From: an uncultured Clostridia bacterium
GTDB taxonomy: Bacteria > Bacillota > Clostridia > Christensenellales > Borkfalkiaceae
DNA: 34,639 nt
Assembly (NCBI GenBank): GCA_947629575.1
Contig: CANREF010000019.1
Span: forward strand, 1-34,639
Direction: 5' to 3'
Shown here: positions 1,433 through 33,052 of the stretch, piece after piece
Numbering within the stretch: position 1 is the first letter of the stretch
Layout: every line of letters begins with the position of its first letter
Notes under the pieces: generated by a model
Told to the model about the DNA's origin: nothing
Database searches by the model: none
Seen by the model: the letters and a program-made list of their open reading frames with translations, nothing else
Translations under genes and position numbers: made by a program

Positions 1433-1485
1433 GTATCCCGATCATAAAAAGCGGCACGGCGGGCAGAGATTTTTCTGCCCGCCGT
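1433..1485 (+). repeat. Copy A of a repeated terminator module
   Basis: The 18 bases GTATCCCGATCATAAAAA (1433-1450), followed within a few bases by a hairpin with arms ACGGCGGGCAGA and TCTGCCCGCCGT, occur again at 31578-31627. The tag and both arms are identical; only the bases between tag and hairpin and the loop differ. Confidence 0.8.
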
Positions 1486-1490
1486 TTATT
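1456..1490 (+). terminator. Intrinsic terminator after the mobilization genes
   Basis: A perfect 12-bp stem (1456-1467 pairing with 1474-1485) with a 6-base loop is followed by a T-rich tract. The A-run before the stem would give a T-tract on the minus strand too, so the element may act in both directions. Confidence 0.8.
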
Positions 1491-1916
1491 TATTTCGGCG
1501 TATATTTTCGGGTTTTTCTGCGGATATTCGGCGATAAAATCCGCGAGAAATGAAGTGACTCCCGAGGATATTTTTCTCACTTCTTGCGGAAAAGCAGCCG
1601 TTTTTTATAGGTTTTTCAGCCGAATCACGAAGCCAAAGCCGTCTTTTACGGGAAAAACGGTGTTCGGATAATTAACGTCCACCTCACCAAGTGAGACCCA
1701 GTAGAACCCGCAAAAAGGTTCTATTGGGGTCTTTTTTTGCACTTTTTCGGCTATTTTATATCCAAAGGACGATTGCATACGTCTGTTTCTCCGCTCCGCC
1801 GCCGAATGTGTGGCGTTCTACTTCTACCGTCATTTTTACTTCATAAAGAGATCGTCGGCAAAGCGTTCGGAATATTTTTTCTTGTAAAGTTTTCAATAAA
1901 AAGATTACAGAAACTC
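1486..1916. other. Non-coding stretch between mobile element and defence operon
   Basis: About 430 bases with no convincing gene on either strand; the short open frames here lack ribosome binding sites and recognisable composition. It contains the second terminator (1694-1738). I saw no tRNA, integrase remnant or clear direct repeat that would mark an attachment site, although this is where the mobile element and the defence operon meet. Confidence 0.6.
1694..1738 (+). terminator. Long hairpin terminator
   Basis: AGACCC plus AGTAGAACC (1694-1708) pairs with GGTTCTATT plus GGGTCT (1717-1732), with one G-T pair and one bulged G, and is followed by seven or more T residues. This is a strong rho-independent terminator that insulates the defence operon from the left-hand genes. 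Confidence 0.85.
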
Positions 1917-1945
1917 TTGACAATGCATCGCATATAGGTTATAAT
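1917..1945 (+). promoter_or_regulatory. Consensus sigma-A promoter of the fic-hsd operon
   Basis: TTGACA (1917-1922) and TATAAT (1940-1945) with exactly 17 bases between them match the consensus fully. The ribosome binding site TAAGGA (1973-1978) lies 5 bases before the fic ATG. No operator was recognised, so strong constitutive expression is plausible. Confidence 0.85.
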
Positions 1946-1983
1946 TATATCAAAATACAAAAAAGATATAATTAAGGACTCCG

Positions 1984-3042: not shown

Positions 3043-3045
3043 ATT

Positions 3046-5624: not shown

Positions 5625-5636
5625 AGGAGAAAAATT

Positions 5637-6668: not shown

Positions 6669-6674
6669 ACAACT

Positions 6675-10336: not shown

Positions 10337-10365
10337 TTGACAATCACGAAAAAGCATGATAGAAT
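10337..10365 (+). promoter_or_regulatory. Promoter of the GH36 gene
   Basis: TTGACA (10337-10342) and TAGAAT (10360-10365) with a 17-base spacer. An upstream in-frame ATG at 10356 lies within the promoter spacer, which supports translation from 10392 instead. Confidence 0.75.
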
Positions 10366-10391
10366 TGGGAAAAAATCGGGAGAACTTCACA

Positions 10392-12470
10392 ATGAAGCAT
10401 GCAAAAATGGAATTTATAGTGTCGGAATGGGACAATAAGCCCTATTTGATCGACCTTGAAGCGCGGGAGATCGCACACCCGGAATACTTTGCAGAGCCTC
10501 CTTTTCTCGCCGAATATTCGTTCACGGATGAAGCGGGGCGGGAGCGTCACGGGGAGACCCGCGACTTCTTCTTTGCGGAAGAGCGGACGTGCGGAGAGGA
10601 ACGGGCGAGCGTGTTCCGCTCCTCGGACGGAGGGGCGGAAATCCTTCATTCCCGCAGGTTTGAGGATGGCGTTTGCATTTGGAGCACGAAGATCGTCAAC
10701 GCCGGCGCGAAGAAACTTTGCGTCAAGAAGCTCTTCAACCGCATCGGCGGCGTTTGTACGGCGGCGATCAAGGGCGATTACCGCGCTGACGCGGAGATCG
10801 GCGTTGTGCGGGGAGAGTGGGCGAGCGAGGGGCAGTTTTTTTGGGAAAGTCCCCAATCGCTCGGGCTTTACCGCGCCACGGGCCACGAGACGGGAAACAT
10901 TGTCCGCTTCGGGTCGCCCACTTCCCAAACCACGCGGAAGTGCGCGCCTCTGCTCTTCGTGCGGGAAAAGGCGAAGGGGACGGTCTGGGCGTTCCAGCAT
11001 TTGCCCGACGGACCTTATTCGATGGAGCTCGGTTTGAGCGACGCCGAAAATATTCCCGGGAGCTGTTTCAATCTCTCCTTCGGCGCGGGGGACAACGAAC
11101 TGCAGGGGTTTCGCCTCTATCTCTCCCGCGGGGAGAGCTATTCCTGCTGCGAGACCCTCTTGACGTGCGCTCCCGACCTTGAGACCGCCGTCGGGAGACT
11201 GACGCGTTTCCGCCGCAAGCGGATGAGATCCCGTCCCGCGCCCCCCGTGATGTTCAACGATTACATGAACTGCCTCTGGTGCAAGTTGGGAGAGGAAGAA
11301 TGTCTGTCTCTGCTCGCCTCGGCGGAGAGTGTGGGCGCGGAGGGGTATTGCTTCGACGACGGCTGGTATCGCGAAAGGGACGCGCACGGCTCTACGGGGT
11401 TGGGGGATTGGATCCCCGCCGAACGCCTGTTCGGCGGCAGAAGTTTTGCCTGCATGATCGAAGAGATCAATTCCCGCGGCATGGTAGCGGGGCTGTGGAC
11501 GGAGCTGGAAGCGTGCAGCGACCTCTCCCGCGCGGCGTCTTTCCCCAAAGAATGGTTTCTCACCAACGAGGGGGAACGGATCTTCCGCAGCGGAAGGTAT
11601 TACTTCAATTTCGGCGTGAAGGAAGTCCGCGAATATCTGCTCGGGCGGGTGCGGGCGCTCTACGATCTCGGGATCCGCTATATCAAGAACGACTATAACG
11701 GGCATCCGGGCTGCGGATGCGATTGGAAGAACGCCTCTCCCTATGCGGGGTTGGAACAGCACTGCCGCTGCGTAGGGGAGTTCTACCGGACGCTCGGGGA
11801 GACCTTCCCCGATCTCATTCTCGAGAATTGCAGCTCGGGCGCGATGCGGGCGGACGCGCAGACGATGCGGAATTTCAATTCGCAGAGCATTTCCGACTGC
11901 GAGGAATATGAAAAACTGCCGAGCATCGTGAACGGAACTCTTCTTTCCCTTCTGCCCGAACAGCTTTCGATTTGGGTATATCCCTATCCCCGTATCTTTT
12001 GGGAAATGAACGGGGAGAGCTATCTCACGGCGGACTATATTGCCGAGCGCGCGAACGGCGCGGAGACCGCCTTCAACCTCGTGACGGGTTTCTTCGGCGT
12101 TCCCCTTCTCTCGGGGAAGATCGACCGCGCCGACGAGACCAACCTCTCCCTCATCCGCCGCGGGGTCGCCCTCTACAAGGAATGGCGTTCCTTCGTTCAG
12201 GAGGGGATCCCCGTGTTCCCCCTCGGGTTTGCAAAACTTCTCGGCGAAGACTGTCCCGCCGCTCAGGGACTGCGCAGGGGGAACACCCTTCTTTTGGGCG
12301 TTTGGAGAAGAAAGGGGGAGGCGGAGATCTTCGTTCCCTGTAAGGGGGTGCGTGCGGCGGAAGAGCTGTATCCCAACCTCGGCGCGTCCGTCAAGAGGAC
12401 GGAAGGGGGGATCTCCGTCCTTCTGCCCGACGAAAACAGCGCCGTCCTCTGCCGCGTGGAATTGGATTAA
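10392..12470 (+). CDS. GH36 alpha-galactosidase
   Basis: Removes alpha-linked terminal galactose from oligosaccharides by a retaining mechanism. The clan GH-D (beta/alpha)8 barrel is recognised by FDDGWY (residues 321-326), the nucleophile motif IKNDYN with D434, and the acid/base region ENCSSGAMR followed by SISD with D502. An N-terminal beta-sandwich (about 1-285) and a C-terminal beta domain complete the 692-residue protein, which is near the family length. There is no signal peptide, so it should act in the cytoplasm on imported sugars. I chose the ATG at 10392 because GGGAGA lies 8 bases before it; the in-frame ATG at 10356 overlaps the promoter. The usual SSGGGR is SSGAMR here, a small departure; other alpha-linked sugars such as N-acetylgalactosamine cannot be excluded. 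Confidence 0.9.
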   Translation: MKHAKMEFIVSEWDNKPYLIDLEAREIAHPEYFAEPPFLAEYSFTDEAGRERHGETRDFFFAEERTCGEERASVFRSSDGGAEILHSRRFEDGVCIWSTKIVNAGAKKLCVKKLFNRIGGVCTAAIKGDYRADAEIGVVRGEWASEGQFFWESPQSLGLYRATGHETGNIVRFGSPTSQTTRKCAPLLFVREKAKGTVWAFQHLPDGPYSMELGLSDAENIPGSCFNLSFGAGDNELQGFRLYLSRGESYSCCETLLTCAPDLETAVGRLTRFRRKRMRSRPAPPVMFNDYMNCLWCKLGEEECLSLLASAESVGAEGYCFDDGWYRERDAHGSTGLGDWIPAERLFGGRSFACMIEEINSRGMVAGLWTELEACSDLSRAASFPKEWFLTNEGERIFRSGRYYFNFGVKEVREYLLGRVRALYDLGIRYIKNDYNGHPGCGCDWKNASPYAGLEQHCRCVGEFYRTLGETFPDLILENCSSGAMRADAQTMRNFNSQSISDCEEYEKLPSIVNGTLLSLLPEQLSIWVYPYPRIFWEMNGESYLTADYIAERANGAETAFNLVTGFFGVPLLSGKIDRADETNLSLIRRGVALYKEWRSFVQEGIPVFPLGFAKLLGEDCPAAQGLRRGNTLLLGVWRRKGEAEIFVPCKGVRAAEELYPNLGASVKRTEGGISVLLPDENSAVLCRVELD

Positions 12471-12874: not shown

Positions 12875-14170
12875 ATGTTCAAAAAGCTCGCTTGCATTGT
12901 CTTGGCAGCGCTGTGCGTGTGCGGAATTTCCTTTGCCCTTCCGCTCTCCGCAGGCGCAGCCGACCCCGCTCCTTCCGCAGAAGAGGAGCGTCCCCGCGCG
13001 ATCTTTCTGCAATCCGTTACGATGACGGAGGAAGGGGAGAACGCGCGCTTTTCCTGTCTCTTTGATAAGGAAGTTTCCGAGAAGGCGGGGGATCTCGACG
13101 CGAAAGCCTACTTCAAGTTCAACGGGAAGAGCCTTTCCGACATCTCGGGTTCTGCCCTTGCCTACACGGAGAACGCGAAAGAGATCGTCGCTTCCGTTCC
13201 CAAGGGCGAATTGGGGGACGGAACGGTCCGTATGAACGTTCTCGGCGGATTTATTTCGGAGACGGAATGCGTTACTACCGTCCGTTACATCTACGATTTC
13301 TACGGATCGGGCGCGGGAAACCGCATCTACCGCAGCGACAACATGGACGACTATGAGGAGGTCACCGTAACTTCGATCTCCGTTCCCACCGTCGAATCGC
13401 TGAACAGCTGCATCTACATCTATTTCTCGGACGCCGTGACCCCCAAGAAGTATCACGATCTGCAATGGACGCGTTCGTGGCTGATCTCGGCATACGGGGA
13501 GAACAACAAGCAGCACCCCGATTTCAGTAATTCCGAGCTAAACCTGCTCTACAACTATCAGGTGTACGACCCGCAGTGGGACTTCTCCATCGCCCACACT
13601 CTGCTCTTCGGCTGCGAGGATTACAACGGACTGAAGGCCTATCCCGCCAACACGGGGAACATCGACATGACCCCCAAGGGAACGGTGGGGGACATCGAGC
13701 TCTTCGACATGCGCCAGCTTCAGGAATCGGTCGCGCAGGAAGGAGTTCCCTATCTCGACGTAAACGGACAGCCTCAGACCCGCAACGGCTCCACCCAGCC
13801 CCTCTCCGTGCAGATCCACTTCGACGAGAACTGGATCCAGTTCATTCTGAAGGGGGACGCACGTGCGGACGCCGACCTCGGGACCGTTCTCGACGCGGCG
13901 GGCGAGAAGGTGGAGGGCTATCCCAAGACCTTCAACGAAAACCTGCGCCCCGACTTCAACCAAGTGATGGCGATCAAGGTGGCGAAGGGAATGCTCCTTC
14001 CCAACGGGAAGATGGTCAAACAGGATTTCACCTTCCTCTACAATCCCGAGCGGAAATATTGGCGGCTCGCCGATTCCGCTCAGGCGGAATATCGGGAGGA
14101 CGAGACCCTCTCCAATCAACAGGGCTACACCGACGCCGAGCTTGCACAGCTTGCGAAAAATCAAAAATAA
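12875..14170 (+). CDS. Secreted protein of unknown function, first gene of the glycan operon
   Basis: A 431-residue protein with a clear Sec signal peptide: KK, a hydrophobic run, then an AGA-like cleavage site near residues 24-30. The mature part starts with a Pro/Glu-rich stretch, then an Ig-like beta-rich region (about 38-125) and a longer domain rich in Tyr, Trp and Asp. I do not recognise the family. There is no membrane anchor or cell-wall sorting motif, so it is released or bound non-covalently. Being the first gene after the promoter and leader, with AGGAGG 5 bases before the ATG, it should be the most highly translated product. Glycan binding is the likeliest role from context alone. 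It is followed after 12 bases by the large lipoprotein gene. Confidence 0.75.
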   Translation: MFKKLACIVLAALCVCGISFALPLSAGAADPAPSAEEERPRAIFLQSVTMTEEGENARFSCLFDKEVSEKAGDLDAKAYFKFNGKSLSDISGSALAYTENAKEIVASVPKGELGDGTVRMNVLGGFISETECVTTVRYIYDFYGSGAGNRIYRSDNMDDYEEVTVTSISVPTVESLNSCIYIYFSDAVTPKKYHDLQWTRSWLISAYGENNKQHPDFSNSELNLLYNYQVYDPQWDFSIAHTLLFGCEDYNGLKAYPANTGNIDMTPKGTVGDIELFDMRQLQESVAQEGVPYLDVNGQPQTRNGSTQPLSVQIHFDENWIQFILKGDARADADLGTVLDAAGEKVEGYPKTFNENLRPDFNQVMAIKVAKGMLLPNGKMVKQDFTFLYNPERKYWRLADSAQAEYREDETLSNQQGYTDAELAQLAKNQK

Positions 14171-14182
14171 AGGAGACCTCGG

Positions 14183-16801
14183 ATGAATAAGAAATTTTTG
14201 AAACTCGGCTCCGTTGCGCTGGCGCTCCTCTTCGGGGGAACTTTCTTTGCCGCATGCGGCAATGAGGAGACGGAAAACGGCGGAGGCGGAAACGGTGGCA
14301 ATGGCGGCGGAGGCGGCGGAAATACCGACGTCGTAGTCCCCGATCTCGAAAACGGATATACCTATACCAAGCAAAACAACGACGGGCTGATGCAGTTTTA
14401 CAGCTCCGATCCCGCGCTCGACAACTTCCTCAACGATTATATGCGCCGTCATCTCCGCTATGACGACGAGGCGATCGGCGCTCTCAAGATCGGCAACGGC
14501 AACAGCGTGTGGAAGGAATGGGAAACGATGTCCGTTGCATGGATGAACACCGCGGGGATCGGATACAGCCCCAAGGACACCGTTAAAAACTGGTTCTCGA
14601 ACATCTATCAGGACGCCTTCGGCTACATTTGGGTGGATTCGGGGACGACGACTGTAAACTGGGGGCAGAGCTGGCAGTTCCCCAGCTGGGCGCACTCCTA
14701 CTATTACAAGGACGGGCGCAAGGAATTCCTCAACACCAACTATTTCGACGGACTCAACAACCTCGACGACGGCAACGTCGAAAACGGCAACAATCTGCTC
14801 ACTTCCCTTTGGAAGGGGGAATCGGATCAGGGGATCAAGGGAACGCTCGGGAAAAATACGACCGAATATTACGACTACATGACGATCTCCGGCAATGATA
14901 TACGGCAGATCACCTACACCTACGAGACGCCCGCCTCGCACAAGAACGAGAGCGGAGTGCCCGTGAAGGCCTTCATGGGAACTCCCTTCTGTTCACCCTT
15001 CCTCGAACTCGATTTCAGCATCACCGATTACGATTCGTTGGGACTTACCGATCAGGTGGAGGACGTCATCGTATGGTGGAAGGGGGGAAGCGGAGAAAAG
15101 AACCAAACTTGGGACAACGATCACCGCGTCTCTTACCGTGAATTCTCCACCAACTACCGCGAGAGTTTCGCTTCCACCACCCACATCGTGTTCCCGATGT
15201 ACGCCCACCCCAACTGGGGGGATTCGGACGACCTCGAAGACGCCATTACGGACATGAAGATCGAGCTCGTGTTCAAGAACGGGATCAACGCGGAAGTCCG
15301 TCTCGAAGAGGTGACCCTCGCCTTCGACGGACGGCAGATCAATAACAACAGCGTCTTTTTGGCTGCCGCCGCCTACTACTACCAATACACGCAGGACGAC
15401 GAATGGCTGCAAAAGAACATCGATAAACTCCGCAAGGCGTTCCAATTCCTCACCACCTACTGCGGAGCGGAGGGAGAGGGGACGGACGCCCTCATCACGA
15501 CCGAACGCTTGGTCGGACACGACGGCTCTTCCAACTACGACTATTTCAATTCGGACGGACAGTACAACGGCGGCAAGGTGACCGACTACCACGCCGTGGG
15601 ACACGGCATCGGCGACGGCTATTGGGACAGCGTCAACAATCCCTGTATCAACCTCTACTGCAACCTCTATTACTACAAGGCGCTCCAAGGTATGCTCTAT
15701 CTCGAAAAGATGATGGACGCTTCGGGAATGCAGGAGAGCGGGGCGGAGGTCAAAGTCCGCACCGCGGACATGAAACAGGAAGTTTCCTATTTGGAGACCG
15801 AACAGTCGCTGCAGGCGAAGATCGACGCCTTCGTGCCCCAATTCAGGCAATATTTCTGGAACGACGAGACGGGGCGGTTCCTCCTCGGCTATCTCTCCGA
15901 AGACGATCCCGGCGTTTTGGCGGGAGAGTTGGATACCAAGGTGGACTACGGCTTTACGACCTATAACCAGGAAGCGGTGCAGCTCGGGCTCGCCACTCCC
16001 GAACAGGCGGTCTCCATTGCCCAATGGATCAACGGGGAACGTAGGGTAGAGGGGGACACCGCCGACAATTCCGGCAAAGCTCCCACCCAGATCTACTACT
16101 TCACCTTCGCCCCCCGCTGGACGACCAAGGAAAACCGCTACCAGTATTGGTTCCGCTTCGACGGCATCAAGTCGGGGACATACGGCTGGAACAAGCAGGT
16201 CCAGAACGGCGGAACGGCGCTCCATTGCGCCTTCTACGACCTCGTTGCCGAAGGGGATACAAACGGCGCGGAGGCGGCGTATCAAAAACTTCTCACCATT
16301 CGCGGCTGGTATGAGGAAGTCGTGGAAGCGGGCGGCGTAGGAGAGGACTTCTACGAGGAATACTACCGCTACAAGAACATCAAGCTGCAGGGCAAGAACG
16401 GCGCGGGCGCGATCGGTATGGACAGCGAATTCATCGAAGCGGCCCTTCTTCCCGCCGCCGTCCCCACCCTGTTCTTCGGGCTCTCCTCCACCGAATACCG
16501 CACCCTCAATATCACCCCCGCCCTTCCTTCGGGACTCTCCTATTGGAAGATGGAGAATCTCGCGTTCGCAGATCTTACTTACGATCTGTCCATCGGTACG
16601 AACTGGGTGCAGATCAACAGCGTGCAGGGGGATCTTACGGGCAAGAAAGTCCGCGTCACCCTGAAAGCGCCCGCGGGAGCTTTTGAAGTACGTCAGCACA
16701 ACATTACCCTCCAGGAGGGTACGGACTATACCGTGCAGAACGGCAGCGTCGTCATCACCGCGCCCTTCCGTAACGGCAGGATCCAGATCATCGAAAAATA
16801 G
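14183..16801 (+). CDS. Surface lipoprotein with six-hairpin-glycosidase-like architecture (paralog A)
   Basis: A lipoprotein signal peptide ends at C25 (FFAAC), followed by a Gly/Asn linker of about 20 residues that would lift the protein off the membrane. The mature protein has a Trp/Tyr-rich N-terminal region (70-170), a jelly-roll-like region (about 265-385), then a helix-rich part with repeated aromatic helices (about 390-760) and a small beta C-terminal domain. This plan resembles (alpha/alpha)6 glycosidases with a C-terminal beta-sandwich. The motif GIGDGYWD (475-482), with D478 and D482, is shared with the protein at 20056 and may be part of an active site; NGGTALH is a second shared motif. 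I cannot assign a known glycoside hydrolase family. Its place before the binding protein and permeases suggests it trims or holds the glycan at the cell surface. Confidence 0.75.
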   Translation: MNKKFLKLGSVALALLFGGTFFAACGNEETENGGGGNGGNGGGGGGNTDVVVPDLENGYTYTKQNNDGLMQFYSSDPALDNFLNDYMRRHLRYDDEAIGALKIGNGNSVWKEWETMSVAWMNTAGIGYSPKDTVKNWFSNIYQDAFGYIWVDSGTTTVNWGQSWQFPSWAHSYYYKDGRKEFLNTNYFDGLNNLDDGNVENGNNLLTSLWKGESDQGIKGTLGKNTTEYYDYMTISGNDIRQITYTYETPASHKNESGVPVKAFMGTPFCSPFLELDFSITDYDSLGLTDQVEDVIVWWKGGSGEKNQTWDNDHRVSYREFSTNYRESFASTTHIVFPMYAHPNWGDSDDLEDAITDMKIELVFKNGINAEVRLEEVTLAFDGRQINNNSVFLAAAAYYYQYTQDDEWLQKNIDKLRKAFQFLTTYCGAEGEGTDALITTERLVGHDGSSNYDYFNSDGQYNGGKVTDYHAVGHGIGDGYWDSVNNPCINLYCNLYYYKALQGMLYLEKMMDASGMQESGAEVKVRTADMKQEVSYLETEQSLQAKIDAFVPQFRQYFWNDETGRFLLGYLSEDDPGVLAGELDTKVDYGFTTYNQEAVQLGLATPEQAVSIAQWINGERRVEGDTADNSGKAPTQIYYFTFAPRWTTKENRYQYWFRFDGIKSGTYGWNKQVQNGGTALHCAFYDLVAEGDTNGAEAAYQKLLTIRGWYEEVVEAGGVGEDFYEEYYRYKNIKLQGKNGAGAIGMDSEFIEAALLPAAVPTLFFGLSSTEYRTLNITPALPSGLSYWKMENLAFADLTYDLSIGTNWVQINSVQGDLTGKKVRVTLKAPAGAFEVRQHNITLQEGTDYTVQNGSVVITAPFRNGRIQIIEK

Positions 16802-16811
16802 GAGAAATTTC

Positions 16812-18200
16812 ATGAAAAAGTTTTGCGTTTTACTTATGTCCTCTATCATGGCGGCAACGCTCGCCCTTTCCTGCGCCTGCTCGATCGACACGGGAGGCGG
16901 GAACGAGAACAACACGCCCGAGCCGGAAGAACCTCCCGTAGTCAACGAGGGGGCGGAGGTCGAACTCACCGTGGGGACGCTCTCCTATTCGGACGAGCGC
17001 ACCCTCATCAACCGTTGGATCAACCGCTTCAATAAGGATCATCCCGAGGTCAACATCAAGCTCACCCACCAAATGCAGGGAATGCCCGATACGACCCTTT
17101 GGGAGAGCGCGGGGAACATGCCCGACATCATGTGGACGGCGGGAGACCAGCATTCCCCCTATTCGGGCTATTATCACTACTTCCAGGACCTCTCCGATGA
17201 AGAGAAATTCCCCGGAAGCGCGGAATTTTTCTCGGGCTTCTACGATTCCCTCATCGACAGTACCCACTTCGACAATACGGACAAGGGGATCTGGTTCGTC
17301 CCGCGCGACTATAACCGTCTCGTGATCTACATCAATAAGACGGCGTTCGCGGAGGCGGGGGTCGATCTTCCCTCCAATAATTGGACGTGGACGGAGTTCA
17401 TCGACATCTGCAACCGCCTTATGGACAAAGGCGCAAAGAAGGCGATCGAGTGGAAGCAGTGGAGACCGGTGTATACCACGATGCTCCGCAACTTCGGCGG
17501 GAAATATCTCAACGACGACGGATCTCTCGCCATCGACAGCGAAGAGACCGCAGCCTGCGTCGATTTCTATCAGAAATTTTACAACACGACCCGTTCGGAT
17601 ACCGACAACGTGGTGGGGCTTGCCATTCCCGGCGAAGGGACTGCCTTCAAGGCCTACCCGGGCTCGGTGATAGGCAGCGTTCCCATGGTGGTGGACGTCC
17701 GTCCTCAGCTTCCCGCCTACATGGCGGCGGCGAGCAACGGCGAATGGGAGCTGGAAGCCCGTTCCTTCCCCAACTACGTCCAGCCCGACGGCTCGGCGGG
17801 TTACGTCGGCGCGGGGTGCAGCGGCTACGGCATTTCCAAAGTTTGCACGGATGAGAAGAAACTCGAATGGGCTTGGAAATTCCTCAAATGGTGCATGTCC
17901 GAAGAGGGGTACGAAGTCGTGAGCAACCTCGGGAACATCGTTCCCGCCCTCACCTCCCTGCGCGACAGCGGTTCGTGGAGAGAGTACGATTATTACGGCG
18001 CAACGGTCGACGCGGCGGCGTTCGTCGATCTCGACAACGGTGCGCAGAGCATTTTCCTCAACTATCAGAACAGCCTTCCCGTCTCCAAGCAGGATGACTT
18101 CATTTTGCGGGTGGACGACTTCTGGAAGGACGTCCGCACGAAGAGTTATGCGGACGCTGTGGAGACTCTCAGACAGGCATATTCCGCACTCATGAAGTGA
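16812..18200 (+). CDS. ABC transporter solute-binding lipoprotein, sugar type (family 1)
   Basis: Captures an oligosaccharide outside the cell and delivers it to the two permeases that follow. The lipid-attachment cysteine is C21 or C23 (LSCAC). Next comes an acidic Pro-rich linker, then the type-1 binding fold opening with LTVGTLSYSDERTLINRW and NKDHPEVNIKL. Later signs are the hinge-region NWTWTEFIDICNRL and the C-terminal WAWKFLKWCMSEEGYE typical of sugar-binding proteins. I chose the ATG at 16812 because TAGGAG, which includes the stop codon of the previous gene, lies 8 bases upstream; an in-frame ATG at 16683 would overlap the previous gene by 119 bases and bury the signal peptide. Length is 462 residues, normal for the family. 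The many aromatic residues fit a sugar ligand. Confidence 0.92.
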   Translation: MKKFCVLLMSSIMAATLALSCACSIDTGGGNENNTPEPEEPPVVNEGAEVELTVGTLSYSDERTLINRWINRFNKDHPEVNIKLTHQMQGMPDTTLWESAGNMPDIMWTAGDQHSPYSGYYHYFQDLSDEEKFPGSAEFFSGFYDSLIDSTHFDNTDKGIWFVPRDYNRLVIYINKTAFAEAGVDLPSNNWTWTEFIDICNRLMDKGAKKAIEWKQWRPVYTTMLRNFGGKYLNDDGSLAIDSEETAACVDFYQKFYNTTRSDTDNVVGLAIPGEGTAFKAYPGSVIGSVPMVVDVRPQLPAYMAAASNGEWELEARSFPNYVQPDGSAGYVGAGCSGYGISKVCTDEKKLEWAWKFLKWCMSEEGYEVVSNLGNIVPALTSLRDSGSWREYDYYGATVDAAAFVDLDNGAQSIFLNYQNSLPVSKQDDFILRVDDFWKDVRTKSYADAVETLRQAYSALMK

Positions 18201-18217
18201 TCGGAAAGGGGGTGAAG

Positions 18218-19132
18218 ATGACTTCAAGTACAAAGAAGAAGCTAAGGCGCAACATCGAGGGATACCTCTATGTATTGCCCGTCATTCTCGGAGTACTGAT
18301 CTTTACGGCGTTCCCCGTGATCTATGCGTTTGTGTGCAGCTTTTTCGAGACGCCGCTCAAACCGATCGGGGAAGGATTCGACCACTTCGTCGGGCTGGGG
18401 AACTACTTCAAGAGTTTTTCGGACGCCTATTACAGCAGGAAGTTCTTCACTTCGCTCGGCGTGACCTTCCTCTATGCCGCGACCTATATCCCGATCAGTC
18501 TCGTCCTCTCCTTCCTGCTTGCCGTGTTTCTCAACAAGCAAGTCAAGGGAATGCGCTTTTTCAGGGTGCTCTACTATCTGCCCGTTCTGCTTCCCGCAGT
18601 GTGTACGGGCATGCTGTGGAACCGTATCACCGATCCCTATTACGGCGTGATCACCAAGGCGCTTCAGAACATCGGGATCAATTGGAGTTGGTTCGAACTG
18701 CCCCAAACGAGCATGGTGTCCTTTGAGTTCATCAGTCTCTTTACGTTGGGCGGGAACATGATCCTGTGGCTCGCGCAGCTGAAAAACGTTCCCAAGTCTT
18801 TGTATGAGAGCGCCACGCTCGACGGTGCGGGGAAGTTCCGCCAGCTTGTCAGTATCACCGTTCCCATCTGCACGCCCATGATCCTCTACAACGTCATCAT
18901 GAGCATCATCGGCGTCATGCAGACCTATTCGCAGGTGCTCACCCTCACGGGGTCGAAGGGCTCGGGGTTGGAAGACAGTTTACTGTTCTACGTGTTCAAT
19001 ATCTACGATAACCGCGTTACGCACTTCGGCTATGCCTGCGCACTGAGTTTCATTCTGTTCGCCATCATCGGCGCGCTCACCGCGGTCGTGATGAAGACGA
19101 GCAAGTGGGTGTATTACACGGAGGAGGGTTGA
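18218..19132 (+). CDS. ABC sugar transporter permease, MalF/UgpA type
   Basis: First membrane channel subunit of the importer. It has six predicted membrane spans (the first at about residues 16-42) and the cytoplasmic EAA loop ESATLDGAG (197-205) that docks to the ATPase. Sequence such as FRVLYYLPVLLP and the TLDGAGKFRQLVSITVP loop are diagnostic of the MalF-like permease family. The start is set at ATG 18218 behind AAGGGGG; an in-frame GTG at 18197 overlapping the previous stop has no ribosome binding site. Its 3' end is one base before the next permease gene. No ATPase gene is present in the window, so the transporter presumably uses a shared MsmX/MsiK-like ATPase encoded elsewhere, as is common in Firmicutes. 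Confidence 0.95.
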   Translation: MTSSTKKKLRRNIEGYLYVLPVILGVLIFTAFPVIYAFVCSFFETPLKPIGEGFDHFVGLGNYFKSFSDAYYSRKFFTSLGVTFLYAATYIPISLVLSFLLAVFLNKQVKGMRFFRVLYYLPVLLPAVCTGMLWNRITDPYYGVITKALQNIGINWSWFELPQTSMVSFEFISLFTLGGNMILWLAQLKNVPKSLYESATLDGAGKFRQLVSITVPICTPMILYNVIMSIIGVMQTYSQVLTLTGSKGSGLEDSLLFYVFNIYDNRVTHFGYACALSFILFAIIGALTAVVMKTSKWVYYTEEG

Positions 19133-19133
19133 T

Positions 19134-20048
19134 ATGCAGGAAGAAAACATCCCCGTTCTCCCTTCCCAAGAAGGAGCGGAAGCGGCCGCTCGCACCAAAA
19201 AGCGCGCCGCGACGGTCAAAATCGTGCGCTTGGCGGTGGATTATCTGTTTCTCATCGCGCTCGCGGCGGTCTTTCTGTTCCCCTTCTTCGTGATGATCTG
19301 TCTGAGCATCCTTCCCGACAAGGACATTTACCGCCAAGTGCTCTTTACCTCCTCGGGCGTCATCAACTTCGGGACTTATACGAAGATCCTGTCGGGTGGC
19401 TCGAAGTATCTTTCCTATCTCGGGAATACCCTCATTGTGGCGGCGATCACGACGGTGGGAATTCCGCTCGTGAGTTCCCTCTGCGCCTATGGGTTTGCGA
19501 AAATGGAATTTGCGGGGAAGGAAGTCGTGTTCGGGATCGTCCTTGCAACGATGATGATCCCCGCGGTCATCAGCTTGGTCCCGCTCTACACCCTGTATGC
19601 GCGGTTCGGCTGGCTGGACACCCTCTTTCCGATGTGGGTCCCTTCCCTCTTCGGAGGGGGCGCGACGAACATCTTCCTCATGCGGCAGTTCATGCGAGGA
19701 ATTCCCAACGACATGATCAAGGCGGCGCAGCTCGACGGGGCGAATTCTTTCGTGATCTATTTCCGTCTCATGCTCCCGCTCTGTCTGCCCATTCTGCTCT
19801 ATGTGGCGGTGCAGTCCTTCCTCGGCGCATGGAACGACTTCATGACCCCGTTCACCTATCTGAGCGTCGGTTCTAAGCACATCACGCTCGCGCTCGGCGT
19901 GTACTACGATTACACCAACAGTTCCCAGACCCTCGCGAACGAGGCGATGGCGGCGGGCGTCATCATGACCCTGCCCTGCGCAGTCATCTTCTTCTGCTTC
20001 CAGAAGTATCTCATCGACGGCGTTGCAGTCACGGGAATGAAGGATTGA
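19134..20048 (+). CDS. ABC sugar transporter permease, MalG type
   Basis: Second channel subunit of the importer. A short basic N-terminus (RTKKRAATVK) precedes six predicted membrane spans. The EAA loop KAAQLDGAN is at residues 196-204 and the C-terminus DGVAVTGMKD is the usual end of MalG-type permeases. Gene spacing of one base after the MalF-type gene and seven bases before the next gene shows it belongs to the same transcript. 304 residues is slightly longer than the usual 275-285 because of the N-terminal extension. Confidence 0.95.
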   Translation: MQEENIPVLPSQEGAEAAARTKKRAATVKIVRLAVDYLFLIALAAVFLFPFFVMICLSILPDKDIYRQVLFTSSGVINFGTYTKILSGGSKYLSYLGNTLIVAAITTVGIPLVSSLCAYGFAKMEFAGKEVVFGIVLATMMIPAVISLVPLYTLYARFGWLDTLFPMWVPSLFGGGATNIFLMRQFMRGIPNDMIKAAQLDGANSFVIYFRLMLPLCLPILLYVAVQSFLGAWNDFMTPFTYLSVGSKHITLALGVYYDYTNSSQTLANEAMAAGVIMTLPCAVIFFCFQKYLIDGVAVTGMKD

Positions 20049-20055
20049 GGTAAAC

Positions 20056-22398
20056 ATGAAACATCGAATCGGAAAAATCATCTCTGCGCCGCTCTCCCTT
20101 TTCACGGCGGCCGCCCTGTGCGTCGCCTGTACTCCTTCAGAGAGCGGAAAGCAAGACCCTCCCGATCTTTCCCCCAAAGAGGAATACGTCGCCTACGACT
20201 ATACGCCCGTCCATACTTCTACCGATCGGAACATCGGCTTTTACAGCTCGGACAGTTCTCTCAACACCGTGCTGAACGATTTCCGCGAGCGGCACATGCG
20301 GGATACAGAAAACCGCATCCACACCCATCCCGTCGGCGCGGGAGGGACTGCGTGGAAGGAATGGGAAGCGATGACGGGTTCGTGGTGGGACGCTTCCGCC
20401 GAAAACGGCACTATGTCGAGGGGATACGCCACCAAAGACTTGGTGAAGGCGTGGCTGCTTTCCCCCGTGCAGGACGGACAGGGCTACATCTGGCGGGACG
20501 AAGGCGGCGACATCGCCGATTGGTCTATGGGCTGGGAATTTCCCGACTACCGCACGGGCGGGAAGGGCTGGCTGTTCGACGAAGGCGAAGAGGGCTGGAC
20601 GGTCTCGGGCGGAACGCCCTCCGTCTCCTCCTCTCATCTCAACATCTCGGCGGAAGGGGCGGAGGAGATCGTCTTGACTTCTCCCGAATTTTCCTGCATG
20701 ACGGCGGCGACGCCCTTCCTCCGCACGGCGTTTTCGTGGACGCCTTCGGCGGGGGACGTGGAAGATCTGTACCTCTACTACCGCACGAGCGATTCGCCCG
20801 AGTGGTCGGAAGAACACAAGGTCTCCTTCTCGGAATTCTGCACCCGCGGCTTTTCGATCGGTGGGGGCGGGGTGCGCGAATCGGGATATTTCTTCCCCAT
20901 GTATCTTCTCGAAGATTGGGGGTTCACCGCGGGCGGCTACGGCGCGCGGTCGATCACGGGGGTCAAATTCGTATTGAAAGGGGCGGCGGGGAAGCCCTTG
21001 AGCGGAACGCTCTCCTTCGACTATATCGCCACCGAATACGACGACCGCCAGCCCCTCAATAACTGCAACTATCTCATCGCCGCGCAGGAACTTCTCTCCT
21101 TCTCGCAGGAGGAGGATACCCTGCAAACAGTTCTTCCCTATGCCCGCCGCGCGATGAATTTCCTCCTTGACGCATTGGAGGGAAGGGAAGGGCTCATCTC
21201 GACCGCCTACCTTGCGGGTCACTATAACGACGGCTACAAGGCGGACGGAACGGGCATCGGCGACGGCTATTGGGACGTGCTCGCCTTCCCCAAAGTCAAC
21301 CTCTACTGCAATATCTCCTATTACAACGCGATCGAAGCGATGCTCTACCTCGAGGAAATGGCGAAGGCACACGGGCTTACCGCTTCGGCGGAACGCACGA
21401 AAAACGCCGCCATGGACGGCACGGTGGAATACGCCGAGACGGTGGAGAGCCTTCTTGCCCTCAAAGAGCGCTGCAAGGAACGCATCCAAAGGGAATTCTG
21501 GAACGAAAAGACGGGCAGATTCCACGTCGGGATCTACGACGACGGAACGGGCCGTCCGCAGGACCACGGCTATCTCATGTTCAACGAACAGGTGATCGAG
21601 AGCGGGATCGCGACAGAGGAGCAGACTGCTTCCGTCATGAGCTGGATCAACGGGACCCGCACGGTGGCGGGGGACGACAGCCGCGGAGAGGACATCTACC
21701 GCTACGAATTCGCGCCCCGCTTCAATACGGGGGAGATCGGGAGCGATTTCTTCTTCGGGTACAGCGCCCTCTTCGACGGGAACGTGCAGAACGGCGGGAC
21801 TGCCCTCCACCTCGCCTATTACGACCTCGTGGCGCAGGCGGCGGTGGGGAAGGACGCGCTCTCCCTCCGTCTCAACGCCTTCCGCGATTGGTATCTGAAA
21901 GTACTTTCGGCGGGCGGACAGGGAATGAACTTTTACCGCACATACTACAGCGGCAGCGGGATAGGCCTGCAAGGGGGCGGAACGGGCGGCACGGTCGGGC
22001 TCGACTATGAATTTTTGGAAGCCGCGCTCCTCCTTCGCGCCGTTCCCGAAGCGATCTTCTCTCTTCGCGCCACGGCGGACGGAACTTTATGCGTCTCCCC
22101 CGCGCTTCCGAAGGAATACGACTATTTCCGTCTCGAAAACGTGACCTTCGCGGGACACTGGCTGGACGTGACGGTGGGGCAATACTTTGCCTGTATCAGC
22201 GGATTGGAGGAATTCCGCGCGGGAAGCGGCTTGAGCGGCAAGTCCGTCTCGTTCACCTTCCCCAAACCTTCGTTCGATTTTGAAATTTATCTCGACGGCG
22301 TTCGTACAGAGGACTACCGCACCCAAGACGGGCTTGTCACCGTGACCCTGCCTCTCCGCAATGGAAAGGTGGAGATAAAGCCCGCCGCAGTGCAGTGA
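20056..22398 (+). CDS. Surface lipoprotein with six-hairpin-glycosidase-like architecture (paralog B)
   Basis: Paralog of the protein at 14183. Shared blocks in the same order include FYSSD, WKEWEAM, GYIW, the GIGDGYWD motif (residues 400-407), NLYCN, LYLEEM, NGGTALH and a C-terminal beta domain ending in NGKVEIKP. The lipid-attachment cysteine is C25 (CVAC). The linker is shorter than in paralog A and is Pro/Asp-rich instead of Gly-rich. A jelly-roll-like, possibly glycan-binding region lies at about 165-330, before the helical domain. The two copies diverge a good deal between the blocks, which suggests different substrate preferences instead of a recent duplication. It follows the permeases after seven bases. 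Enzyme activity is inferred from the fold-like pattern only, and the family is not one I can name. Confidence 0.75.
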   Translation: MKHRIGKIISAPLSLFTAAALCVACTPSESGKQDPPDLSPKEEYVAYDYTPVHTSTDRNIGFYSSDSSLNTVLNDFRERHMRDTENRIHTHPVGAGGTAWKEWEAMTGSWWDASAENGTMSRGYATKDLVKAWLLSPVQDGQGYIWRDEGGDIADWSMGWEFPDYRTGGKGWLFDEGEEGWTVSGGTPSVSSSHLNISAEGAEEIVLTSPEFSCMTAATPFLRTAFSWTPSAGDVEDLYLYYRTSDSPEWSEEHKVSFSEFCTRGFSIGGGGVRESGYFFPMYLLEDWGFTAGGYGARSITGVKFVLKGAAGKPLSGTLSFDYIATEYDDRQPLNNCNYLIAAQELLSFSQEEDTLQTVLPYARRAMNFLLDALEGREGLISTAYLAGHYNDGYKADGTGIGDGYWDVLAFPKVNLYCNISYYNAIEAMLYLEEMAKAHGLTASAERTKNAAMDGTVEYAETVESLLALKERCKERIQREFWNEKTGRFHVGIYDDGTGRPQDHGYLMFNEQVIESGIATEEQTASVMSWINGTRTVAGDDSRGEDIYRYEFAPRFNTGEIGSDFFFGYSALFDGNVQNGGTALHLAYYDLVAQAAVGKDALSLRLNAFRDWYLKVLSAGGQGMNFYRTYYSGSGIGLQGGGTGGTVGLDYEFLEAALLLRAVPEAIFSLRATADGTLCVSPALPKEYDYFRLENVTFAGHWLDVTVGQYFACISGLEEFRAGSGLSGKSVSFTFPKPSFDFEIYLDGVRTEDYRTQDGLVTVTLPLRNGKVEIKPAAVQ

Positions 22399-22458: not shown

Positions 22459-24438
22459 ATGAAGAAGAAACTGTTATTGGCATTACCGCTTGCGTTTGCT
22501 CTGGCATTCAGCTTTACCGCATGCGACAACACGCCCGCTGAGAACAACAACGTCGGAGACGGCGGAACGGGCAGCACCGAGAAATTGCCGCCCGAACAGA
22601 AAGTAACTACCTACGATGTCACGGTCGTAGACGGCACTATCAAGGGAACGGTCTGGAATCATCAGACGGTCGAGGAGAATTCTTCCGTCACCGTCGTCGC
22701 TTATCCCGAATCGGATACGCGCGGCGCATTTGAAGGCTGGACGATCGGCGACGCGACCGAAAAAGTGGGGACTGCGACCGAGTATAAGATCGACAAAGTC
22801 ACTTCCGACATCACCATTACCGCTCACTATGCGGCGGTAGTCACCCCCGAAGTGAAGGAAAAGGTCGCCGTCACCGTCGTCAACGGCACGATCAAAGGGG
22901 AGAACACCAACCAAAACATCTACGACAAGGGGACTTCCGTGACTGTCGTTCCCGATTCCGACAAGGGGACGTTCGAAAAATGGATGAACGGTGAAACGGA
23001 AGCAAGCACGCAGTCCGAATACACCTTCACGGCCGATAGGAGCGTCGTTCTCACGGCGACCTTCGCCGCGGAAGAAGCCAAGCCCAGCGTTTGGAGCGGC
23101 GATTATCCCGACAGCGAACCCGAAGGCTTCCTCGAAGACGAAGCCACCCATTCGTGGCACATCACCTCGGCGGACGCGCTTGCCTTCTGGGCGAACAAGG
23201 TGACCTGCAATGCCGACGGTACAGACAAGAATCTTTCCAGATACAGCGTGCTTGATGAGAGTACCCGTGCGGCTCAGAACGACGACCCGATGAATTATTA
23301 TCATCCCGAACGCGCCTGGACGCTCTACCTCGAAACGGATGTGGATCTCGACGGCTATCCCTGGACGCCCATCAATTCCTCTCAGTGGAGCTTCTGCGGG
23401 CTCACCTTCAACGGGCTCGGGCACACCATTTCCAACCTCTATGTGGAGGCGCAAAATGAAACAACAGCTGGTCTCGGTAATAACAGCGCCGGTTTCTTCG
23501 GTTGTGTCATGAAGGACGACCTTGCCATTCGCAACGTTACGTTTGACGGCGCGCGCATTGTCAGCACAAGTACGTCCAAGCAGAACATGGCCGTTGTACT
23601 CGGTTATGTCAGTCCCAGCTACCACTGGATGGGGGCTGGACAAACCTATTTCGGAACTCCTCAATCCATCATCTTCGATAATGTGCATGTCATCAATTCC
23701 ATTGTCGGCGACGGCAACGCATATAAGGACGGTCTCTTTGTGGGACGTTCCGGTGCATGGATCGAAGACGAACACGACGCGGCTATGTATATGTTCACCA
23801 ACTGCTCGGCTTCCGATTGCACAGTCATCGGTACGAAGTTTGTGGGCGGCTATATCGGCTATGCTTGCCATGGTTCAGACGGTGACATCGCGGTGGGCGG
23901 AACGCTCTCCATTATTGAAATCAGCTGTACGATGACCAATGTTACGCTCATCACTGCCAATGCCTCGAACGATGTAGGTCTCTCTATCCCCGGCACTCTT
24001 GTTTCGGGCGACCATCATCTTACGACGTATCATGGCACCGATCTCAAGGCACATGCCGTGAAGAATATCAAGAAACTTGACCTTCACTGCGGAGCAGGCG
24101 CGATCGTCGGCACGGCCGAAGAGCTGTCAAATGCTATTTGCGATGAAAACTATGAACCCAACAAGACCGAGATCTTCGTTGCATGCGACATCGATATTAC
24201 CAAGATCATTTCCACCCTCGAAGAGAACTTCGAAGCCGATCCCGAAACGAAGCAAGTGATCTATTTGCTCGACGGCGCGCAGATCACGGGCGGGACGATC
24301 GAAGGGATCGAGATCCGCAAGATCAGCGGCGAACGCGATGGCGGCAGCCTTGTCGTTACGAACGAAGCGGGCTCTGCGATCGGCAAGTGGGTCATTGGCG
24401 AAGAAGGCAAGTCCGCTTCCTATGTAGCGAACAACTGA
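22459..24438 (+). CDS. Surface lipoprotein with InlB-type repeats and beta-helix region
   Basis: A lipoprotein signal peptide ends at C22 (TAC). Two repeats of about 75 residues follow (about 51-129 and 137-204), each with V-x-V-V-(D/N)-G-T-I-K-G, a GTF/GAF-E-x-W segment and an ITITAHY/VLTATF ending. This is the pattern of divergent InlB B-repeat/bacterial repeat domains found in surface proteins. From about 290 the sequence (FNGLGHTISNLYVEA, ... AIRNVTFDGARI) fits a right-handed beta-helix with GLUG-like turns. No catalytic motif is evident, so an adhesive or glycan-binding role is more likely than an enzyme. The ribosome binding site AAGGAG is about 8-10 bases upstream. The 60-base gap after the previous gene shows no promoter, making this the last gene of the operon. 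Confidence 0.78.
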   Translation: MKKKLLLALPLAFALAFSFTACDNTPAENNNVGDGGTGSTEKLPPEQKVTTYDVTVVDGTIKGTVWNHQTVEENSSVTVVAYPESDTRGAFEGWTIGDATEKVGTATEYKIDKVTSDITITAHYAAVVTPEVKEKVAVTVVNGTIKGENTNQNIYDKGTSVTVVPDSDKGTFEKWMNGETEASTQSEYTFTADRSVVLTATFAAEEAKPSVWSGDYPDSEPEGFLEDEATHSWHITSADALAFWANKVTCNADGTDKNLSRYSVLDESTRAAQNDDPMNYYHPERAWTLYLETDVDLDGYPWTPINSSQWSFCGLTFNGLGHTISNLYVEAQNETTAGLGNNSAGFFGCVMKDDLAIRNVTFDGARIVSTSTSKQNMAVVLGYVSPSYHWMGAGQTYFGTPQSIIFDNVHVINSIVGDGNAYKDGLFVGRSGAWIEDEHDAAMYMFTNCSASDCTVIGTKFVGGYIGYACHGSDGDIAVGGTLSIIEISCTMTNVTLITANASNDVGLSIPGTLVSGDHHLTTYHGTDLKAHAVKNIKKLDLHCGAGAIVGTAEELSNAICDENYEPNKTEIFVACDIDITKIISTLEENFEADPETKQVIYLLDGAQITGGTIEGIEIRKISGERDGGSLVVTNEAGSAIGKWVIGEEGKSASYVANN

Positions 24439-24878: not shown

Positions 24879-27800
24879 ATGAAAACACGATCCTTTCTTT
24901 TGCGCGCGGCGTTGCTCCTATTTGCGCTCTCCGCGCTCCTTTCAGGGCTCTTCCTTCTCAAACCTGCCGCCGCGGCGAACGCCGCCGCAAACGACCCCGA
25001 CACCGCACAGTTTCTTTCCACTTTCACCCCTTCGCGTGGTTCTTCCGTGGAGATGGACGGCGGCTGTCTGACCTTTACGATCGGCGGGGCTTCTTCCTAT
25101 GCCGAAGTTTCCACTTCGCAATATTCCACGGGCTCGCAGTGGTTTGTGAAGTACCTCACCATGCGAAACACCGTGCTTCTGCACATGAAGAATAATTCCC
25201 CCGCCACGAGCTGTACGCTCTCCTTCATCACCCGCTCCAAGCGGGAGTTTGACGAGGAGAAGAGCGTCTCCTTCCCCCTTGAAACGGACGGGGAATTCCA
25301 CACTTACTTTGTAGACCTCTCGCGGAATCCTCTCGCAACGGGCCAGCTCACGGGGCTTCGGCTCTCCCCGCAGGCGGACTTTGGCTCTGTCTCGATCGAC
25401 TATATCTCCTTTGAACACGAATTTGTCGGCGACTATGCGGGGAAGATCCTCTCCTGCACGACGGACGGCAGTTCGGTCTTCGTGAAAGGGGAGCTCAACG
25501 AAGAATTTGCGGGAAAAGACGTCACCCTCTACCGCACGGGGATCGAGAATATCAACCAAGATCTCTCCTTTGCTTCCGCCCTCGAAACGGTTCGGGCGGA
25601 GGGGAACAGCTTCTCCTTCGAGATCCCCTATTTCGACGGGGAGATCACACTTCTCTCCTCCAAATTCCTTGCCGCCGTGGGGAAGATCAAAGTCGCTCCC
25701 ATGTTCGACATCGAAAATTGGCGGGACATGACAGAAAATCCCTATGCCTTTACCCTGCCCGAACGCACCGTCTCCGTCCTCGACTACGGGGCGAAGGGGG
25801 ACGCGTTCACCAACGATACCCCCGCCATCCAACGCGCCATAGACGAGGTGAGCGGACAGGGCGGCGGAGTTGTCGTCGTTCCCGGGGAAGAGGGGGACTA
25901 CGGGCGCAGATACCGCGTTTCCACCATTCGCCTCAAAGACAATGTGGAACTTCGCGTCGAGAAGGGGGCTACCCTCTGGCAGTCGCTGCGGCCCGAAGAT
26001 TATCCTTATTCTCCCACCGTCGGACACGACGTTCCCGGGATAGAATGGGGACACAACGGACTTGCCAAGAACTATCCGCTCGTCTACGGCGGCGGAGCGA
26101 AGAATATCAAACTGACGGGCGGGGGGACTGTCCGCCTCGCCGACACGGGAAACCAGCACCGCCTCAACGGGTATTCTCCCGCTTACAGCGAATACTGCGC
26201 TTCCCTCATCCACCTCGTGCCGCTCGGATTTTACGACTGCACGAATGTGGAAGTGACGGACATCACCGTCTTGAGAACGAGCTGTTACCACTGCGTTGTC
26301 TACGGCTGTACGAACGTCTATCTCGGCAATATCACCCTCACCGAGGACGCCTGTCTCTCGGGCGACGGATTCAGCATCGGGCTGGGTTCTAAAAACGTGA
26401 TCGTCGACCGCTGTTTCCTCTATACCGACGACGACGCGATCGTGCTCCTTGCTCACTCCATCGGAGACCAACGCGGGCAGACGTGGTGGACCAACCACCC
26501 CGACGGCGGCGATAACCGCGTCCGTAACGTCACCCTTCGCCACAGTGCGGTCACGCCCGGGAATATCATCGTTCTCATCACGTGGGGGGTGGACGCTTCC
26601 GATTGGACTTGGCAGGCGATGAACGGCTTCGATTGCTACGACAATATCCTCGGAACGTACACCACGGAAGCGATGAAGTCGATGAATTCTTCCTGCATGA
26701 ACCTCTGCAACAGCCGCAATACCTACGGCTATGGCGGACTTTCCGTCCCCGTCCTCAACTTCCGTATCCGAAACAATTCCTACCGCGGGGCTATCGCCAA
26801 CATCACCGCCCTTGCGGGCAAGACGGGCTGGATCGCCGACTGCGGAGGGGTCAACGTGGAAGGGGAATTTTACGATACTTCCTTCTATCGCGGGCTCGGC
26901 TATTGGGAGTACGGCGGAGAATATGAAAAGAACGTCTTTGCGGAGGGAGCGGAAGCCGTCCTCGATCTCGACCCCGCCCTTGCAAAGACTTACGGAACGC
27001 CCTCCCTCTTTCAGGGGCTGTACCTTCTTCCCGGGGAATACACCTTCTCCGCGGACGTGAAGGAGGAAGCGGGGGGCACAGCGAAGCTGTTTGCCCGCGA
27101 GGCGTATTCGGGAGAGGAGATCGCTTCCGTCCCCGCCTCCGAGGGGAAACTCACCTTCACCGTCTACTACGAAGGGGTGTACGACATCGGCGCGGAGGGC
27201 ACTTCCGAAACGGGTCGGGTCACCCTCTCCTCCTTCCTTCTCTCGGGGACCGAAGGGGAGCGGAAAGCCTTCTTCACCCAAGACTTCGAGGGGGGAAGGG
27301 AGGAAGAATTGTTCGAAAAGTTCGACTTCCGTCTTCTCACCGAAGGGGAGAACACTTCCCTCGCCCTTGCGGAAGGGCAGATCGGCGGCGATCTCCGCTT
27401 CAAATCGGTCTATACCGACTTCGACCTCAAAGCGGAATCCCTTTCCCGCAGAGAGGGACTTCACTACGTCCGCTACGGCGGGAACAGCGCCTATTACAGC
27501 GTGATCTTCGACGGCGTGCGGAAGACCGTCTCCCTGCTTTCGCGGGAGAACGGGACTTCCCGTAAACTCTCCTCCGCCCCCGCCGACCTTCCCGCAGGGG
27601 AATGGGTGCAATTCGGGCTTTCCATGAAGGAGGGGACGCTGCGCGTGTTCCTCAACGGAGAGCAGCTCCTCGAACAGAGCGGGCTCAAAGACCTCGGCGG
27701 AGGGTATTTGCGCGTCGGCGAATACGGCGCGGACGCCCTTCTCGATAACTTCGCCGTCGCCGAAGCGGGAACGCTCACCTTCGGGCGCTCTTCCCTCTGG

Positions 27801-33049: not shown

Positions 33050-33052
33050 ATT

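Follow-up and report, generated by a model that had tools for sequence, protein, structure and literature searches.

Organization of the locus

A stretch of 34,639 nt from an uncultured Clostridia bacterium (GCA_947629575.1, contig CANREF010000019.1, positions 1–34,639, forward strand), hereafter the window, contained two genes for large predicted surface lipoproteins, Fam1 and Fam2, located on either side of the genes of a sugar importer. The two proteins were diverged paralogues, and their predicted fold places them in the six-hairpin ((α/α)6) glycosidase superfamily, with a β domain inserted in the barrel. The importer was composed of an SBP_bac_1 binding protein and two BPD_transp_1 permeases encoded between the pair, in agreement with the first-pass annotation of this DNA, which had described the pair as flanking importer genes. 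The six genes from 12875 to 22398 were almost contiguous, with gaps of at most 12 bases or short overlaps. The ATG of the binding-protein gene at 16797 overlapped the Fam1 stop codon, and the listed open reading frame (ORF) begins at a TTG upstream. The features of the pair and the importer were as follows.

14183–16801, + strand: Fam1, 872-residue predicted surface lipoprotein, six-hairpin glycosidase-like (ORF, BLASTP, model, fold search)
14699–15322, + strand: Fam1 inserted mostly-β domain, residues ~173–380, between barrel helices 3 and 4 (DSSP on the model; length against insert-less relatives)
15605–15628, + strand: Fam1 GIGDGYWD, residues 475–482, with Asp482 as predicted general acid on the helix 5–6 loop (motif, model, conservation)
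16436–16438, + strand: Fam1 Glu752, predicted general base at the start of helix 12 (model, conservation)
16797–18200, + strand: solute-binding protein (SBP_bac_1) of a CUT1-type importer (Pfam)
18197–19132, + strand: permease A, UgpA/MalF-like (BPD_transp_1; Pfam, NCBIfam)
19134–20048, + strand: permease B, MalG-like (BPD_transp_1; Pfam, NCBIfam)
20056–22398, + strand: Fam2, 780-residue predicted surface lipoprotein, six-hairpin glycosidase-like (ORF, BLASTP, model, fold search)
20599–21036, + strand: Fam2 inserted mostly-β domain, residues ~182–327, between barrel helices 3 and 4 (DSSP on the model; length against insert-less relatives)
21253–21276, + strand: Fam2 GIGDGYWD, residues 400–407, with Asp407 as predicted general acid (motif, model, conservation)
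22018–22020, + strand: Fam2 Glu655, predicted general base at the start of helix 12 (model, conservation)
22072–22185, + strand: Fam2 match to PF03633, the C-terminal domain of glycoside hydrolase family (GH) 65, residues 673–710, E 1.7e-6 (Pfam)

Paralogy and predicted fold of Fam1 and Fam2

When Fam1 was compared with Fam2 by BLASTP, the two were aligned with 32% identity over 899 alignment columns (374 bits, E 4e-121), a similarity far beyond chance, so that the paralogy claimed from shared sequence blocks was confirmed. All six of the motifs named then occurred once per protein and in a common order: FYSSD (starting at residues 72 and 62 in Fam1 and Fam2, respectively), WKEWE (110 and 100), GYIW (147 and 143), GIGDGYWD (475 and 400), NLYCN (490 and 415), and NGGTALH (675 and 579). 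Both N-termini had a signal-like stretch up to Cys25, which was invariant in the 71 rows of alignment A1 (a window protein and 70 homologues). This residue would be the lipobox cysteine through which both proteins are anchored to lipid.

The AlphaFold models of Fam1 and Fam2 had predicted local distance difference test (pLDDT) values of 89 and 92, respectively. DSSP analysis of both models gave a twelve-helix (α/α)6 barrel and a C-terminal β domain, as the first-pass annotation had proposed, but that proposal had overlooked a mostly-β domain which, in both models, interrupts the barrel between helices 3 and 4. The modelled barrel begins at residue 77 in Fam1 and residue 67 in Fam2, with no domain ahead of it. 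In a Foldseek search of the PDB, the 50 best fold matches of each model supported the (α/α)6 barrel, and no single glycosidase family stood out for either protein. The top matches included the GH78 α-L-rhamnosidases AoRhaA, A. niger Rha-2, and 3cih, with 11–15% identity in the VIA alignments. Whole-chain template modelling (TM) scores were low (≤0.34 to the query) because the domain order differs from that of the matched chains; the fold was judged from the VIA alignments instead. Fam1 and Fam2 are thus predicted to belong in fold to the six-hairpin superfamily.

The homologues among the matches listed numbered 94, besides the window's own entries P0001 and P0060, and the insert was present in all 93 that were measured. 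A search with one insert-less paralogue gave 249 relatives without the insert, of which 120 were listed. A tree of 103 rows was built from the two window proteins, 93 of the 94 homologues (P0075, a 522-residue piece, was omitted), and 8 insert-less proteins taken from the 120 listed. Fam1 (26 rows) and Fam2 (48 rows) formed separate clades in this quick tree, each with a Shimodaira–Hasegawa-like approximate likelihood ratio test (SH-aLRT) value of 99, with long-branch warnings. In the alignment, the distance from the GYIW block to helix 4 was 185–315 residues in all 95 insert-type tree rows and 19–30 residues in all 8 insert-less tree rows. Among the 120 listed insert-less proteins it was 0–32 residues, with a median of 18.5 and none above 100. 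The predicted barrel insert is the structural novelty of the Fam1/Fam2 type.

Candidate catalytic residues

Two acidic residues did not vary across the 103 tree rows. One is the Asp that ends GIGDGYWD (Asp482 in Fam1 and Asp407 in Fam2), in the helix 5–6 loop, and the other is a Glu where helix 12 begins (Glu752 and Glu655). By clade, both were present in 26 of 26 Fam1 rows and 48 of 48 Fam2 rows. Their insert-less counterparts, Asp261 and Glu491, fell in the same columns as Asp407 and Glu655 and were invariant in the 120 listed proteins. The first-pass annotation had named Asp478 and Asp482 of Fam1 as candidate residues; the choice of Asp482 was supported by this conservation, whereas that of Asp478 was not. 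At the column of Asp478 (Asp403 in Fam2), all 26 Fam1 rows had Asp, whereas the 48 Fam2 rows were divided among Asn (28), Asp (17), Ser (2), and Ala (1), and each of the 8 insert-less tree rows had Ser or Cys; the residue was therefore rejected as a catalytic acid. The likelier partner acid of Asp482 is Glu752 (Glu655 in Fam2), a residue that had not been named. The likeliest catalytic pairs, judged by conservation, are therefore Asp482/Glu752 in Fam1 and Asp407/Glu655 in Fam2. Two further candidates were discarded. Asp650 of Fam2 (Asp747 in Fam1), considered as the base, was invariant in the 95 insert-type rows, but the 8 insert-less rows had Ile or Val there, and Glu652 was replaced by Val in 2 rows.

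By helix order, Asp407 and Glu655 would occupy the acid and base positions of the six-hairpin superfamily. In GH65 and GH15, the acid is located on the helix 5–6 loop and the base on the helix 11–12 loop, and one bacterial GH65 hydrolase carries its base Glu at the position used by phosphorylases for phosphate binding (PMC8626586). GH63 and GH37 enzymes have the acid within the helix 5–6 insertion, and their base position coincides with a sulfate, a phosphate analogue, of GH94 (PMC7263609).

The surroundings of the Glu were compared with GH94 by hhalign. In GH94, the TG[ST]A stretch before helix 12 binds phosphate. Glu655 fell on TG[ST]A in an alignment with a GH94 set that may include wrong-frame rows, and with the same set the Fam2 counterpart of the stretch read F-L-E-A. 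With a corrected GH94 set, the A1 alignment was gapped at TG[ST]A. The insert-less profile placed Glu491 right beside the stretch, in a gap. A Glu on or beside TG[ST]A, together with the helix positions of the acid and base, suggests a hydrolase rather than a phosphorylase.

Protein-family and profile matches

Pfam was scanned for both proteins with E up to 1. Fam2 matched PF03633 with 28.1 bits against a cut-off of 22, whereas Fam1 had nothing above cut-off, PF03633 included. Neither protein matched PF17167 or PF06165 (GH94), PF22422 (MGH1-like GH63), PF06202 (GDE_C, of GH133-type debranching enzymes), PF03632 (GH65), or PF17389 (GH78). A CBM_X2 match at E 0.017 was set aside as chance. NCBIfam gave no match for either protein. 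The first-pass annotation could not match the pair to a known family, and Pfam and NCBIfam likewise gave no catalytic-domain match for either protein; the best reading is that of an unassigned six-hairpin family with respect to these two collections. Six insert-type relatives had weak or C-terminal Pfam matches at most, and one of them, P0089, passed GH65_C. The listed insert-less proteins carried patchy precomputed Pfam assignments (PF17389, PF04685, PF22422, PF17167, PF06202, and PF03633), none of them consistent. Of the insert-less paralogues in the same genome, L005 passed GDE_C by 0.8 bits and L003 passed PKD alone. Searches of an open-licence library gave no paper for the motif string and listed no title or abstract describing a family or system like Fam1/Fam2, and a plasmid collection contained no Fam2 match.

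In PDB sequence searches with Fam1, Fam2, and the A1 profile, no pertinent chain was found below E 0.016 (for Fam1, among the best 60 of 103 matches). Within those 60, matches of a glycine-rich stretch of Fam1 to antibody linkers were set aside as chance. The sole match of the A1 profile was the GH94 chitobiose phosphorylase 1v7v, at E 0.016. Searches with two insert-less paralogues returned no glycosidase.

Profile kinship was measured by single pairwise hhalign comparisons rather than database searches, and several of these span at most half of the barrel. For A1, A2 (a window protein and 57 homologues), and A3 (Fam1 alone), the probabilities were 96, 97, and 94% with MGH1-like GH63; 92, 93, and 22% with GDE_C; 20, 39, and 3% with GH94; 30, 41, and <1% with GH78; 9, 15, and 2% with GH95; and <3% each with GH65. 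The insert-less profile gave 97.9% with GH94, 97.8% with MGH1-like, 94% with GDE_C, 93% with GH78, 92% with GH65 (57 columns only), and 2.7% with GH95. A1 matched the insert-less profile with 100% (E 6e-67).

Comparison with known six-hairpin enzymes

When compared with GH94, the models of Fam1 and Fam2 had no counterpart of the N-terminal supersandwich, their β domain lying inside the barrel instead. Like GH63/MGH1-like enzymes and GH37, both proteins are predicted to have the acid in the helix 5–6 region and to share the base position (PMC7263609), and the high MGH1-like profile values cover part of the barrel. They differ from GH63 in having a predicted C-terminal β domain, and the insertion lies between helices 5 and 6 in GH63 (same source) rather than between helices 3 and 4. 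Fam2, unlike Fam1, passed the Pfam cut-off for the GH65 C-terminal domain, whereas neither protein had a GH65 catalytic-domain match and the A1 and A2 profile values stayed below 3%. GH78 α-L-rhamnosidases share the barrel and the C-terminal domain, despite the low identity noted above. GH121 HypBA2 of Bifidobacterium longum is also a membrane-anchored (α/α)6 enzyme, an anchoring predicted here for Fam1 and Fam2, and is clustered with an ATP-binding cassette (ABC) importer; however, it is retaining and has an N-terminal β domain (PMC7263609), whereas that of Fam1 and Fam2 is inserted. No sequence match of HypBA2 to Fam1 or Fam2 was found.

Distribution of the locus

A Fam1-type gene was present in six of the ten loci first examined (L006–L011), with 50–76% identity. 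The order Fam1, importer, Fam2 recurred in four further loci (L006, L008, L010, and L011), which were all four Fam1-type loci whose contig extends past the second permease; the contigs of L007 and L009 end before the Fam2 position, that of L009 just after Fam1. The two-step unit suggested by the first-pass annotation was nevertheless weakened, because the pair, although recurrent around the importer, was not obligatory. L137 and L138 had the importer followed by Fam2, with no Fam1 in the stretch taken, and an obligatory pair was rejected on this ground; in L012–L015 and L144–L146, a single member preceded the importer.

Outside the window, 19 distinct loci were counted (L006–L015, L017, L019, L137, L138, L141, and L143–L146; L139, L140, and L142 were counted as L008, L010, and L012, whose contigs have the same lengths, and L146 as L018). 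Importer genes adjoined the family member in 16 of the 19. L017 and L019 showed just the binding protein within the short stretch covered. No importer was found in the 15 and 11 kilobases covered in L141 and L143, respectively, by a search that used the importer proteins of the window as queries (tblastn, E 1e-8, >60 bits), which a diverged importer could escape.

Family matches occurred in 5 of 61 genomes, the own genome included and one of them barely, and, with an E limit of 1e-60, in 8 of the order's 396 genomes; the latter scan scored two candidates per genome, so that copy numbers are lower bounds. Given this sparse occurrence, the locus looks accessory.

Other observations were made at related loci. 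Proteins of 943 residues (L012:1902–4733) and 918 residues (L013:7230–9986), both without a Pfam match, were encoded directly upstream of the single-copy relatives and importer. In L138, the second gene after the Fam2 gene (15257–16411) was a 385-residue ORF with a GH94 supersandwich domain. Two relatives of Fam1/Fam2 that lack the insert were encoded on contig C5 of the window's genome, in a region that also carried GH65, GH78-like, and trehalase genes. This second glycan cluster (C5:74000–112754; L126, L127) also contained a GDSL esterase.

Neighbouring genes and possible substrate

The genes surrounding the pair were as follows.

10356–12470, + strand: Melibiase-domain protein (sole NCBIfam match β-L-arabinopyranosidase, 210.7 bits against a cut-off of 1100)
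12875–14170, + strand: 431-residue protein with a signal-like start (no Pfam match above cut-off, no NCBIfam match)
24879–28040, + strand: GH28-like protein (best NCBIfam match rhamnogalacturonidase, 77.3 bits against a cut-off of 500)
28049–29305, + strand: CE2/GDSL esterase (Pfam, NCBIfam)
29316–30464, + strand: CE2/GDSL esterase (Pfam, NCBIfam)
30528–31568, + strand: LacI-type regulator (family match)

The gene of the 431-residue protein was located upstream of Fam1 in all six Fam1-type loci (L006–L011), and its product is perhaps a surface glycan-binding protein. Melibiase-type genes recurred in L006, L007, L010, and L011, and CE2 pairs in L010 and L011. Both esterases of the window were nearest to acetylxylan esterase/glucomannan deacetylase, below the NCBIfam cut-off. 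The melibiase-type, GH28-like, and CE2 genes nearby allow a guess at the substrate, an acetylated pectic oligosaccharide bearing galactose or arabinopyranose, or a related heteroglycan. A galactosylated, acetylated mannan would be an equally good guess for the esterases and the Melibiase protein.

Elsewhere in the window, a lipoprotein-like gene with two InlB-type repeats (22459–24438) adjoined Fam2 and had relatives at the same place in L006 and L008. Two genes at 31925–34111 (374 and 352 residues) were without a match in Pfam or NCBIfam at E up to 0.01. The region 5' of the sugar locus (58–9962) encoded a Mob_Pre recombination enzyme, a Fic protein, type I restriction-modification proteins, and AbiH, with HsdM, HsdS, AbiH, and HsdR starting at 3046, 4539, 5637, and 6675, respectively. 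Its G+C fraction was 0.42–0.50, compared with 0.51–0.60 across 10–32 kilobases.

Proposed mechanism and alternatives

Fam1 and Fam2 are probably cell-surface lipoproteins with insert-interrupted (α/α)6 barrels that act as inverting glycoside hydrolases and trim oligosaccharides beside the importer. The sugar to be cleaved would be held in the barrel pocket, with cleavage in an exo mode. Asp482 of Fam1 or Asp407 of Fam2 would donate a proton to the glycosidic oxygen, and Glu752 or Glu655 would activate a water molecule. The inserted β domain may lie over the cleft and help to bind the glycan, because the helix order puts the helix 3–4 loop and the two catalytic loops on one face of the barrel. 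The binding protein would then carry the trimmed product to the two permeases.

Some observations weigh against this picture. Asp588 of Fam1 (Asp503 in Fam2), in the helix 7–8 loop, was Asp in 102 of 103 tree rows and in 120 of 120 listed insert-less proteins, and it may be a further catalytic acid. The insert-less paralogue L005 passed the GDE_C cut-off. Confidence in the proposed reading was lowered slightly by these two points. L137 and L138, with the importer and Fam2 only, speak against a paired unit.

One alternative concerns novelty and is compatible with the proposed mechanism: the proteins may belong to a family that CAZy already describes but for which Pfam and NCBIfam have no model and the PDB no close structure. 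The (α/α)6 families GH192–194 were created as late as 2025 (PMC12102758), which leaves room for such a family, whereas the PDB searches described above gave no sequence match below their best E value once the antibody linkers were set aside, and the relatives, most of which had no name, were otherwise labelled just 'hypothetical protein' or 'discoidin domain-containing protein'. This alternative was considered doubtful, though it deserves to be taken seriously. A bolder version of the hydrolase reading is somewhat more tentative still: a new glycosidase family with a carbohydrate-binding-like β domain in the barrel over the active-site face, whose two paralogues, differing in specificity, would take turns in stripping a common branched glycan, with the importer of the product encoded between them.

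It is unlikely that Fam1 and Fam2 are retaining glycosidases like GH116 and GH121, with another acid such as Glu102 of Fam2 (WKEWE) involved. GH116 barrels were among the Foldseek matches, a GH121 barrel matched Fam2 at E 9.6e-7, the pocket of HypBA2 contains three conserved acids (PMC7263609), and Glu102 was Glu in 93 of 95 insert-type rows. However, 2 of the 8 insert-less tree rows had another residue in place of Glu102, whereas Asp407 and Glu655 were never replaced, and the GH63, GH78, and GH37 homologues with the acid/base pair are described as inverting in the same source.

Phosphate-dependent cleavage is unusual outside the cell, and the predicted extracellular location, like the missing PF17167 match, the absence of a modelled β domain ahead of the barrel, and the Glu on or beside TG[ST]A, makes GH94-type phosphorylases, splitting sugars with phosphate, very improbable. 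Alternatively, the barrel could be dead and the lipoproteins could bind glycans to supply the importer, which would fit the inserted β domain and the adjoining binding-protein gene. The two acids, invariant in every Fam1 and Fam2 row, would be needless in a dead enzyme, however, and this explanation is equally improbable.

The proteins define a sequence family with conserved acids at the predicted acid and base positions of six-hairpin glycosidases, yet with no Pfam or NCBIfam catalytic-domain match for the window pair. The insert-less sister family is common and has the same two acids, and most of the loci seen link a family member to a sugar importer. If active, the family would account for part of the glycan use by poorly cultured Clostridia.
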